Shown here one piece after another: positions 276-57,740 of a stretch of DNA of 64,000 bases. The notes under the pieces are model-generated. The model saw only the letters and a program-made list of their open reading frames with translations, made no database searches and was not told the origin of the DNA. Position numbers and translations under genes: made by a program. The stretch lies in assembly GCA_026122225.1 (NCBI GenBank), contig JANEZZ010001404.1:372001-436000 (forward strand), written 5' to 3'. How positions within the stretch are numbered: position 1 is the first letter of the stretch; each line of letters opens with the position of its first letter. Source of the stretch: Heloderma charlesbogerti. Taxonomy: Eukaryota; Chordata; Lepidosauria; Squamata; Helodermatidae.

Positions 276-360
276 CTGCCTCCAGCGGTCCAGATCTGGC
301 CACTGTTGGCCGCTGCTTCGATGTGCGGCCACGAATGGCGTGCTGCACAGGGGATGCCAT
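276..360 (-). other. outward ATG-to-splice-donor unit, element A left
   Basis: On the minus strand an ATG (358-360) opens a frame with no stop for 28 codons up to a GCAG|GTAGGA donor-like site (GT at 274-275), pointing to the left end of the transposon. Element C carries the equivalent GTAGGATC donor. Use as an exon is inference. Confidence 0.4.
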
Positions 361-374
361 TTGCATCCCTGCTT

Positions 375-420
375 TAGCCATGATAGGCTATGTAAATATT
401 TATGTAGCCTATCATGGCTA
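375..420. repeat. 46-bp palindrome of element A
   Basis: Two 23-bp arms meet at AAAT|ATTT. The outer bases TAGCCATGATAGGC pair perfectly; the inner ACGT sites of the family are ATGT in both arms, as expected from CpG deamination. Flanking inverted GCCATTTGCAT/ATGCAAATGG copies extend the fold. Confidence 0.85.
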
Positions 421-518
421 CAGCAGCGATGCAAATGGTGTCTCCTATGCAGGACGCCATTTGCGTCTGCAGCAGCCCGGCTGTGGATCGGCCTAGCCGG
501 CAGCTCTGCAGACATACC

Positions 519-638
519 ATGGAGCGGAGCTGGCCAGGGAGGATTCCAGGGCGGAGGACCGGATCACCTCCCCCCCATCAAGGATTCCGGGGGGAGGACC
601 AGATTGCCTCCCCCCCCCACGGACCCCAGCGGAGCAAG
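519..638 (+). other. outward ATG-to-splice-donor unit, element A right
   Basis: ATG in a good context (CCATGG) opens 40 codons without a stop, ending at GCAAG|GTAAGT (GT 639-640), 25 bp from the transposon end. It aligns with the left unit of C and the right unit of F. Confidence 0.45.
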
Positions 639-671
639 GTAAGTGGGGTTTCGTACACCCCTACTAATTCA

Positions 672-972
672 GCTAATTTCTGGTGGTGCAATAGAGCTAA
701 TGCATCTTTTAAACCTATGTTTTGCCAGTGTCCAGTAGTTGCTTCTTTTTGCAGGGAGATTATTACACAGAAAAATTCTGTACTGGACCAGTCTTTAATA
801 TTCACTGATGCACAGACTCTTTCAAATTATTTACTTGCTTCATGGAAATTAACAAATGATCAGCTTCAATGGATTCTTTGCAGCCTTTTGACAGCTAAAA
901 GGCTGCTATTACAACATCGGAAGGATAAACACTCACCTGCTATAATGCAACGGACTGAGGACCTTACAAAAC
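672..972. other. no recognised feature
   Basis: AT-rich anonymous sequence between element A and a SINE. I see no repeat, exon or RNA gene in it. Confidence 0.5.
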
Positions 973-1160
973 CATAGCTCAGTGTGACGGACCACCCGCT
1001 TTGCATGCAGAAGGTCCCAGGTTTGATCCCCAGCTTCTCCAGGTAGGGCAAGGAAAGAATCCTACCTGAAACCCTCGAGAGCCACTGCCAGTCAGTGTTG
1101 ACAGTACTGGGCTAGATGGACCCATGGCCTGACACAGTATAAGGCAGCTTCCTGTGTTCC
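973..1160 (+). mobile_element. tRNA-derived SINE with LINE-like tail
   Basis: The head (CATAGCTCAG, then CTTTGCATGCAG and the B-box-like GGTTTGATCC) resembles a tRNA-Ala with TGC anticodon. The body ends GGGCTAGATGGACCCATGGC and AGGCAGCTTCCTGTGTTCC. The tail resembles the 3' ends of the LINE family at 1436-1700, as expected if that LINE's enzyme copied it. A related copy lies on the minus strand at 8951-9136. Confidence 0.8.
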
Positions 1161-54450: not shown

Positions 54451-54599
54451 GAAAAGCAAATGCACTAATTCTGAATTGATTAAATGTGAATGAAAGTTTC
54501 ATGCAAGAAAGAAATGACAAAAATGATTTGAAAAAAAAATCCAAAAAAGAAATAAAGGGGAGAAAACACACTTTTTTCCCCAGTGTACATACCTGTTTC

Positions 54600-55790
54600 C
54601 ATCTCTTGGTGGACTCCGGTTGGGCCATATGGCCATGTGGAACCACCAGGAGCAAGGCCTCCGATGACCTCAGTGACCAGGCAGATTGGTAAGGGAGAAG
54701 GCGCTCTCTCAGGTATCCTGGTCCTGAGTTGTTTAGGGCTTTGTACATGAGTACTAAAACCTTAAACCTGCCCTGGCAACGAATAGGCAGCCAGTGCAGT
54801 TCCCTCAGCAAAGGAGTTGCAGGCTGAAAAGGGGCAGCTCCCAACCATAGCCAAGCTGCTGTATTCTGCACTCTAGGTCCAGCTTCCAGACCAGTCTTAA
54901 GGGCAGCCCCACGCAGAGTGCATTGCTGTAATCCAGTCTTGAGGTTACTAGCACCTGTACCACTGTGGCCAAGCTATCTCTGTCCAGGAGAGGCCGTAGC
55001 TGGCGAACCAGCCGAAGCTGGTAAAAGGCAGTCTGAGCCGCCATGGCCATTTGGGCTTCCAGTGACAATGATGGATCTAGGAGTACCCCCAGACTATGGA
55101 CCTGATCTTTCAGATGGGGTGCAACCCCATCCAGAGCAGGCAATGAGCCTGCTCTGTCCTGGACTCGGGAACCACTCACCAACAGGGCTTCTGTCTTGCC
55201 AGGATTCAGCGTCAGTTTATTGGCCCTCATCCAGCCCATTACTGAGTTCAGGCACTGGTCCAGGACTTGCACAGCCTCTCCTGATTCAGATGTCACAGGG
55301 AGCTGTGTGACATCAGCATACTGATGGCACTTGCTTCCAAATCCCCTAATGACCACTCCCAGTGCATTCATATAGATGTTAAATAACACTGGGGACAAGA
55401 TGGTCCCCTGTAGAACCCCACAGCTCAACTGCCAAGGGGCTGAGGAATGGTCACCCAGTGTCACTCTCTGAAATCAGCCCCGCAGGTAGGACTGGAACCA
55501 CTGTAACACAGTGCCTCTGCGATGGAGTCCATCCAGGAGGATACCATGGTCAATGGTATCAAAAGCCGATGAGAGATTGAGCAGAATTAACAGGGTTGCA
55601 CTCTCCCTGTCCCTCTCTCAATAAAGTTCATCCGTCAGGGTGACTGATTCAGTTCCGTAACCAGGACGAAACCCAAATTGACATGGGTCTAGATAATCAG
55701 TAGCCTCCAAGAGTGCCTGAAGTTGTTCTCCAGTAATTAGGGTAATCCTGGTCATGTGACCAGCATGCACAGGGGCGGGAGAAACAACTA
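54600..55790 (-). pseudogene. CR1/L2-like LINE, decayed reverse transcriptase
   Basis: The minus strand reads through an RT core. Motif A (about 55550-55580) is LLNLSSAFDTIDHGILLDGL, with Asn where the first catalytic Asp is expected. Motif B region GVLQGTILSPVLFNIYMNAL (about 55390) is intact. Motif C (about 55310-55330) is YADVTQL, the second Asp changed to Val. Then RANKLTLNPGKTEALLV follows, and further on LHWLPIRCQGRFKVLVL. Two in-frame stops are seen before the main frame. It cannot be active. Confidence 0.88.
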
Positions 55791-56940
55791 ATGCTGTGTT
55801 GTTTGCCCCACTGATTGTCTGAACCTGGTCACAGTCAGGAACCCTGATAAAGCAAGCTTCCTGATCACATGGAGGATTCTGCTTACATTCCAGGGTTTTT
55901 CCATCACAGGACCTGTCAGAGGAGGCGTTTAATCACAGGGATAGACAATCACAGTGGCTGTAACATGCTGAAATGCAGGAAATGTGCTGAAATGTAGGCA
56001 GAAATGTACTTAAATGCAGGAAAATTTAAAATACTACAAGGAAGATAGAGCCACACTTCAGGTTCAAGCATCTTGCATGTGTTAGTTCCCACAATTAGGT
56101 TTAGGTACGTGTGTGTGTGTGTGTGTGTGTGCGTGTGTGCGTGTGTGCAGGGATGGTGTGAGTGAGAGCTTACCTAAATGAGGCTGTTGATCCCTGTATC
56201 TACTTTGAGTTTCATTGCAAAATTGAGATCTGAGCTCTACACAAAGAGCTTTTCCTTTCCTGCTTTTCTGCTACATAAACTCTAGGTGATGCTTTGCTAT
56301 AGCAGAATAGTGCAAATACACAAGTAGGAAAATACCTTTTCTTTTGCTTTCAGAAATAATACCCCATTTTCCCCGCTCTAATAAAACTCTGGGAAAATGC
56401 TCTTAAAATACAGAAGCAAAACTGGAGGATCATATTGTCATCTAAAGAACCTGTAAACAACCATGAATAAGTAAAGGAATTATGAGTGCACAATAAATGC
56501 CTCATGTAGAAAAGCTCTATGAGAGAGAGAGAGAGAGAAGCTCTAATAACCAAATATGTTAACTGACCAATTGCACTTCTTAATAGATTAAATACTGGAT
56601 TGTATCCAATGGGATGCATCCACATGTTAGTTTATTTCTATGAGGCTACTCTACATAGGGGAACATTGGATACAACCAATTGTTTGAGAACTCTGCTTTG
56701 AGATGTAGCAGAGTAATCAGAAGAATTTTCCACTGAATGGTGGCTTTTACGCATATGGCATAGTGTTTAAATAGAATCAACAAAACTGCTAAGGAAACAG
56801 AAAGGGGAGAGGTCACCCCTGCATACAAACACAGCAGCATTGAATCCCCATGGATGTTAAAAGAGAAAAGCATTGAAGGGGGTATCAGTAGCTCCCAGTT
56901 CCCCCCACCCCCGCAGACTTGCTGAGATGAACTCCTTTGA
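55791..56940. other. no recognised feature; microsatellites
   Basis: Anonymous with (GT)n at 56108-56148 and (GA)n at 56520-56538. Confidence 0.5.
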
Positions 56941-57070
56941 CTTTAATTAATTAATTAATTAATTTTATTTAGCGGTATTTGTATATCGCTCCACATCCAA
57001 AGACCTCAGAGCGGTGAACAGCAAGCAGGATAAAGAGTAAAAAACCCCATCATGTTAAAATAAAGTAACT
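56941..57070 (-). mobile_element. LINE 3' tail
   Basis: TTAATTAATT microsatellite then AGCGGTATTTGTATATCGCT and CAGAGCGGTGAACAGCAAGC: the reversed tail of the LINE at 28800-29430. Confidence 0.75.
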
Positions 57071-57510
57071 TTGAGTTGGATCTGCTTCTGACACCTCCCA
57101 ACTGCACAGCCCAAACATCCTAGCAATATGAAAAACTCATCTTGTCTTCTTCTGGAAATGGTGAAAAAACAGTCATAAAAACACGTTGTCAAATAAAAAC
57201 AAACAAATTAATTAAAACACACACACAATTTCCTGTGTGGTTATTTTTGAGAGAGCAGACAACTGTATCAAACATAACGCGCTAATGTCATCTACCCAGA
57301 ATTCATGCTCACTGTGCTTTCAGACTCTGTGAAACCAATGTAATTGGTTCTGATTGCACAGAAATGCTTCAAGTTGTTAATTCAGTGGTCAGCCTCCCAC
57401 ATTTTGTGTGGCAAAGCTCATTATCAATGCAATCCTTTCATCAGATGAATTCACATTTCCTTCTTCTTACTGCAGGTACTTAAATATCTGCCTTCTTATT
57501 TTAATGATGC
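57071..57510. other. no recognised feature
   Basis: AT-rich anonymous sequence. Confidence 0.45.
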
Positions 57511-57636
57511 ATTCTAGATAGGGATGTCAGAGAATTCCGCCACGGGTCTCGGGGAGGCTGAATGCCAGTGCATTCGGCCCCCCGAAATTGGTGGTGGAAC
57601 GGCCTGCCCCCCGCCCCCCCCCAGGACGAGACTTAC

Positions 57637-57740
57637 CTGGGGTGGATCTTCCGGGTGGCGGCAGCTCCGGCGGTGGTTCGGTGGCAGCGGCTGCAGTGGT
57701 TGTGGCGGCCGGTCTTCCGACTGGCTGCCGCCACCACCAT
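57637..57740 (-). other. outward ATG-to-splice-donor unit, element I
   Basis: Minus-strand ATGGTGGTGGCGGCAGCC opens 34 codons (MVVAAASRKTGRH) to CACCCCAG|GTAAGT (GT at 57635-57636). Homologous to the unit of G, same phase. At the other end GAACAG|GTAAGT (58041-58048) is present without the upstream frame. Confidence 0.5.

Follow-up and report, generated by a model that had tools for sequence, protein, structure and literature searches.

Palindromic hAT-like elements in a Heloderma charlesbogerti contig carry splice-donor-like sites that point outward near their ends

The window analysed here, a 64,000-nucleotide (64-kb) stretch of the Heloderma charlesbogerti genome (assembly GCA_026122225.1, contig JANEZZ010001404.1, positions 372,001 to 436,000; coordinates below count from its first letter), contains nine palindromic elements, A to I, and near most of their ends lies a site resembling a 5′ splice donor that points out of the element. 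Elements were sought by scanning the window for tips like TAGGGATGT...ACATCCCTA together with 8-bp target-site duplications (TSDs), a procedure that recovered A, B, C, D, F, G, I and an outer element around I (52143-52909), while shifted controls gave 0 to 2 pairs per scan. The letters may differ from those used in the first-pass annotation of this DNA. Each element has one ‘short’ and one ‘long’ end. On the plus strand are A (143-663; TSD CTAATTCA, 8/8), with its long end on the left and its short end on the right; B (6755-7128; GTTCTAGT, 8/8), whose long end is without a donor; H (26366-26982), which has the tips and for which the scan of the window found no TSD; D (29869-30538; CCTGAATC, 8/8); I (52393-52859; CAGAAATC, 8/8), nested in the outer element; and F (57519-58066; ATTCTAGA, 8/8). 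On the minus strand are C (9880-10666; CCAGAAAC, 8/8) and E (31463-32383; 7/8), both flipped, and G (23044-23628; TTTCCACG/TTTCCATG, 7/8). Together the elements occupy 8.6% of the window.

The terminal inverted repeats of hAT transposons start with the consensus YARNG. Most tips here read TAGGG or CAGGG, the exceptions being TGGGG at one tip each of B and H, and the right tip of E has lost one base. Both these terminal repeats and the 8-bp duplications, perfect in A, B, C, D, F and I and matching at seven of eight positions in E and G, are those of a hAT-like miniature inverted-repeat transposable element (MITE), and the elements are palindromic hAT-like transposons, likely non-autonomous. No transposase was detected among the 10 of 49 long open reading frames (ORFs) of the window that were scanned against Pfam. 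Elements A to F form one family with ends common to all, and central palindromic modules of the CTACGTAAATATTTACGTAG kind occur in all of them but B, in decayed form in A. The first-pass annotation had described D and E as subfamilies of unrelated sequence, which was mistaken, since the two share the long end and the central modules. I is a distant member through its long end (model match, E = 8.8e-5). The interior of G is unlike that of A to F and is the least similar to the rest among the nine. The left end of H (26370-26456) is a short-type end of the kind found in A to E (E = 1.6e-13), and H may be chimeric. A, C, D, E and F hold at their long ends a subterminal inverted repeat (model matches on both strands at the same place) of about 80 bp, located between tip and donor, as at 29869-29949 in D. 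The core of E (31624-32155) is a palindrome of about 530 bp with arms 89% identical and with repeated CTACGTAAA..TTTACGTAG modules. The element around I, which spans 52143-52909, has tips TGGGGATGT/CATCCCTA and the duplication GTTTGAAC/GTTTTAAC; it is older than the I inserted in it, and the pair provides a dated nesting of two related transposons.

Donors were scored with 5′ splice-site frequencies, at a cut-off of 8 bits, in the terminal 160 bp of each end. At the short end a donor lies 19-25 bp from the tip in all nine elements (a slash marks the exon boundary): A, AAG/GTAAGT (636-644, plus strand, 25 bp from the tip); B, CAG/GTAGGG (7104-7112, plus, 22 bp); C, CAG/GTAAGC (9899-9907, minus, 25 bp); D, CAG/GTAAGG (30514-30522, plus, 22 bp); E, AAG/GTAAGT (31481-31489, minus, 24 bp); F, CAG/GTAAGT (58040-58048, plus, 24 bp); I, TAG/GTAGGT (52838-52846, plus, 19 bp); H, AGG/GTGAGT at its right end, 19 bp from the tip; and G, GGG/GTGAGT, also at 19 bp, with a further, inner donor AGG/GTGAGT (23161-23169, minus) 123 bp from the tip. 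At the long end the distance is 97-134 bp in seven elements: A, CAG/GTAGGA (270-278, minus, 133 bp); C, CAG/GTAGGA (10532-10540, plus, 132 bp); D, CAG/GTAAGT (29995-30003, minus, 132 bp); E, AAG/GTAAGT (32265-32273, plus, 116 bp); F, CAG/GTAAGT (57631-57639, minus, 118 bp); G, GGG/GTGAGT (23492-23500, plus, 134 bp), with a second site GGG/GTGAGC at 99 bp; and I, CAA/GTAAGG (52484-52492, minus, 97 bp). The left end of H has a weak site, AAG/GTAAAC, 152 bp in and scoring 7.4 bits. The three examples quoted in the first-pass annotation lie where it had put them, with an ATG at 519 and a donor GT at 639, a minus-strand ATG at 30079 and a last exon base at 30001, and an ATG at 32161 and a GT at 32268.

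Outward donors of at least 8 bits were found at 16 of the 18 ends and inward ones at two (C short and F short), whereas 500 sets of dinucleotide-shuffled ends had a donor at 1.75 ends on average and at six at most. The directional placement noted in the first-pass annotation is upheld. When only the eight elements with a duplication are counted, 15 of 16 ends have an outward donor, the miss being B long. The whole 64 kb contains 20 donors of at least 11 bits, nine of them in elements, and eight of these nine point outward within 160 bp of an end. The outer element at 52143-52909, whose tip is related, and two other palindromes (34281-34640 and 47598-47925) served as controls; 0 of their 6 ends had a donor of at least 8 bits. 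The latter two are further palindromic elements of unlike sequence. That GC-rich terminal DNA yields such donors by chance is hardly credible: taken singly, the moderate donors (A long, C long, B short, H and I) have shuffle p values of about 0.04-0.10, and B long one of 0.28, but the joint count lies far above the shuffled maximum and the outward sites strongly outnumber the inward ones.

The 11 donors of A to F vary among themselves only at positions -3, +4 and +6, at which splice donors tolerate variation, and G and H use GTGAGT, likewise a splice-donor pattern. The ends of A to F were aligned with MAFFT without anchoring on the donor (25 pairs), and identity outside the donors ranged from 0.46 to 0.81 over all pairs, or 46-71% at short ends (A-C, 81%) and 64-72% at long ends. 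The donors fell in one column in 12 of the 25 pairs, one of which, C-D short, has gaps in two donor columns of this unanchored alignment; mismatches in the 12 pairs, from -3 to +6, numbered 4, 0, 0, 0, 0, 0, 3, 0 and 6. With the ends anchored on the donor, each end type has six invariant columns among the nine of the donor, compared with 2 of 41 flank columns at short ends (A to F) and 5 of 62 at long ends (A, C to F). Conservation of the donor beyond its flanks, which the first-pass annotation had proposed as a check, is therefore seen among the copies in the window. For A and C to F, pair identity of the best 9-mers was 0.86 outward and 0.60 inward at short ends, and 0.82 outward and 0.57 inward at long ends; the null averaged 0.48 and reached 0.64 at most. 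Adding G, H and I changed the outward values to 0.75 and 0.65 and the inward ones to 0.57 and 0.53 (null maximum 0.57); B was left out of both sets. The distance from tip to donor varies within each end type while the motif stays constant.

The TSDs show mismatches at 2 of 64 sites, a figure biased downward because the duplications helped to recognise most of the elements, while divergence between the terminal pieces of the copies amounts to 19 to 54%. With so few mismatches despite such divergence, most of it probably dates from the source lineages while they were replicating and under selection for mobility, and the donors persisted in them. This is the strongest, though inferential, argument that the motif serves the element in some way.

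One explanation for sites at both ends is that a single first exon was duplicated in inverse, which the first-pass annotation had listed as an alternative. Eight elements were compared, B falling outside the comparison as it has no long-end donor. Within A, C, D, E, F, H and I, neither the 80 bases upstream of the two donors (p 0.365 to 0.993) nor the sequences after them (p 0.279 to 0.960) resemble each other, so that the two donor arms are without detectable similarity and the donors of these seven are not detectably an inverse duplicate. In A and C to F the longest central inverted-repeat arms end before the donors are reached; in E, for example, they occupy element positions 229-760, with the donors at 116 and 897. 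The alternative survives for G, in which the arms (129-468) include both inner donors and 27 of 40 bases upstream of these agree in register, a structure that fits inverse duplication. The arms of G include exon-like ATGG...GTGAGT units on both sides, the donor 19 bp from one tip being additional to them. The long-end donor was also considered as a relic of an old terminal repeat and rejected in this role, the sequence after it being unlike the short-end tips (mean p 0.45 over 30 comparisons, five long by six short ends).

More generally, the donors could be functionless remnants, inherited from an autonomous element or from a first exon that an ancestor had captured. The shared ancestry of A to F, the distant relationship of I, the inclusion of both inner donors of G in its inverted-repeat arms and the loss of the donor from the short-type left end of H would all agree with such an origin. 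We nevertheless consider it improbable, given the invariance of six donor columns between flanks that are 46-81% identical (a comparison of column counts only) and the fact that the two donors of A and of C to F are not recognisable copies of each other.

The donors had also been described as ending units of an ATG and an open frame, with at least one such unit in every element but H. The donor part of that description holds, and the part on ATG and frame does not. Within 150 bases upstream, an open ATG was found at 5 of 9 short ends, with 5.6 expected under the null, and none was found at the short ends of E, F, H and I. The claim that A, C, D, E and F have one such unit on each side accordingly stands for E and F as to donors on both sides and falls as to an open ATG on their short sides. 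At long ends there is a modest excess (8 of 8 versus 4.4). Downstream of the chosen ATG, A, D, E and F stay open in every one of the three frames up to the long donor; C, G and I do so in two of three. The phase relative to the donor is the same in A, C and two of the three starts of D, and E and F share another; no reading frame is kept across all copies. A coding first exon is not supported, with short ends at chance and frames not conserved, and the first exons, if they exist, are probably non-coding or coding only by accident. One or more open ATGG starts, such as AGAAATGGCGGC in D, occur at all eight long ends where a donor, if only a weak one, is present, which is a weak hint of a YY1-like start context and no evidence of coding. 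Acceptor-like sites occur in four of the nine short-end segments and three of the eight long-end ones (up to 250 bp upstream of the donor; background 2.0 per strand-kb), and a cassette exon inside the element was rejected for want of a consistent acceptor upstream of the donors.

The absence of such an acceptor agrees with a further possibility, namely that the elements have no promoter of their own and that, when they lie in host introns, the downstream sense donor binds U1 and protects the pre-mRNA, making insertions tolerated. In telescripting, U1 guards pre-mRNA from early polyadenylation. With one outward donor per strand, protection would not depend on the orientation of the insertion. 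We regard this explanation as distinctly improbable, and it leaves the CpG-rich and motif-rich cores unexplained. Observed/expected CpG ratios are 0.34-1.22 in the elements (1.22 for E as a whole) versus 0.19 outside, an elevation that recent insertion could partly explain. The motif CCATTTG, which we take to be YY1-like, occurs at 4.55 per kb in the elements and 0.14 outside (about 30-fold) and is absent from G and I; TACGTA occurs at 7.65 versus 0.07 per kb (about 100-fold) and is absent from A, B and G. Motif densities of this order are also expected of repeated modules of any function. It is from the CpG content and the motifs that the centre is proposed to be a promoter.

Under the reading that we prefer, RNA would start in the CpG-rich core, acting as a bidirectional promoter, and would run out both ways; the U1 small nuclear ribonucleoprotein (snRNP) would bind the outward donor sites; and the first exons would be spliced to acceptors in the flanking DNA. 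The element could benefit, for instance, through productive transcription or through chromatin kept open to the transposase. The donors exist, have a consistent direction and show the kind of variation seen in splice donors, which favours this reading over chance. That the conserved outward donors are working 5′ splice sites for such core-started RNA is, in our judgement, close to an even prospect. Of the earlier proposal of divergent first exons around a central promoter, the directional donors with splice-donor variation are retained and the coding half is given up.

Several observations weigh against working splice sites. The outer element at 52143-52909 has a related tip and yet no outward donor. 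B long and H long lack a donor of at least 8 bits, and in the short-type left end of H the strong donor has been lost, the best outward site there being ACA/GTGGGG (3.0 bits). A number of the donors are moderate (8.1 and 8.4 bits in I, 8.4 in A long and C long, 8.9 in B). The conservation tests draw on few copies from one window that share ancestry, which makes the pair counts non-independent, and choosing sites by best score biases them toward donor-like letters. In the unanchored alignment the donors were shifted in 13 of 25 pairs, in which the motif is intact in both elements and the spacing differs. Finally, a transposase-binding site in the DNA would likewise be expected to appear as a conserved motif, inverted, close to both ends.

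That last point leads to the main rival, in which AGGTRRG is a subterminal binding site for transposase or a host factor, inverted at the two ends, and its likeness to a donor is incidental. The motif is mostly present in one copy per end, close to the tip, and is kept in lineages that have diverged elsewhere; its inverted orientation is expected of such sites, so orientation does not discriminate between the two readings. What tells against a binding site is that the motif lies 19-25 bp in at one end and 97-134 bp at the other, between unlike flanks, that its variation in A to F and the GTGAGT of G and H follow the pattern of splice donors, and that the element with the related tip is without it. 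We consider this rival rather unlikely while giving it real weight, and outward splicing of RNA started in the element would appear to be the most economical reading.

A broader proposal is offered tentatively, as a possibility: this DNA transposon lineage may have been selected as a two-way exon gun, in which a palindromic, CpG-rich promoter is combined with two separately arisen outward U1/splice-donor sites, and insertions in either orientation would throw spliced transcripts into the neighbouring genome and so stay transcribed and mobile. If the donors work, each insertion would be a ready source, to its left and right alike, of new first exons and chimeric transcripts. It would then be possible to read selection for splice signals from the sequence of a transposon, in substitutions confined to positions where a donor tolerates them, and the question is raised of whether non-autonomous DNA transposons gain from recruiting U1.

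What we take to be a squamate-type short interspersed nuclear element (SINE) lies near 970-1160 of the window, and a reverse-transcriptase fragment (Pfam RVT_1, E = 2.9e-12), likely the remnant of a long interspersed nuclear element (LINE), is found on the minus strand at 54805-55470; it was the only match above the cut-off among the 10 of 49 long ORFs scanned. Rfam gave nothing at the gathering threshold. Patterns of the element ends matched 0, 0 and 16 loci in a viral collection, and the 16, none of which matched an element at better than E = 0.006, were judged to be chance.

Transposons with splice signals of their own are known from several systems. The maize Ac/Ds elements, which are hAT elements, have cryptic splice donors near their termini that serve to splice the element out of the host transcript, whereas the donors described here face outward on both strands. 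Introners, in the available part of their description, include DNA-transposon-like families, some with terminal inverted repeats and TSDs, that bring their own splice signals (PMC9860276). They become introns, and the element itself is removed (PMC9860276); here the donors point out, at 16 of 18 ends, and a partner acceptor is not conserved, a comparison that uses sequence data only. Translation initiator of short 5′ UTR (TISU)/YY1 start elements, as far as the accessible text defines them, include a strict position near the transcription start in their definition (PMC2518114). The open ATGG start in each of the eight long ends recalls them, and among the starts listed a full ATGGCGGC core is seen at D long only. 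A further study concerns intronic transposons, the splice sites that they contain and the suppression of these by SAFB (PMC10901741). As they appear in the portions available to us, none of L1 ORF0, introners and SAFB-suppressed intronic transposons combines a palindromic DNA element with donors that point out of both ends (PMC4859970, PMC9860276, PMC10901741). No account of outward donors in hAT MITEs was present among the matches listed, which consisted of titles and the starts of abstracts, most subscription journals being outside the search.

ORF0 of primate LINE-1 (L1) was reportedly described by Denli in 2015. L1 has an antisense promoter, and its ORF0 contains two splice donors and can be joined to exons downstream; YY1 is among the factors implicated in L1 transcription, according to the excerpts available (PMC4859970). 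Compared with an ORF0-type unit, the elements of this window have the donors, while the frame is not conserved and the open ATGs of the short ends are at chance. L1 ORF0 is, on those excerpts, the nearest working analogue, as a transposon-borne outward promoter with splice donors; unlike the elements here, L1 is a retrotransposon, and it has a single such unit with an ORF of 70 aa (PMC4859970). Those of this window are DNA elements, known from their sequence alone, with an outward donor at nearly every end.

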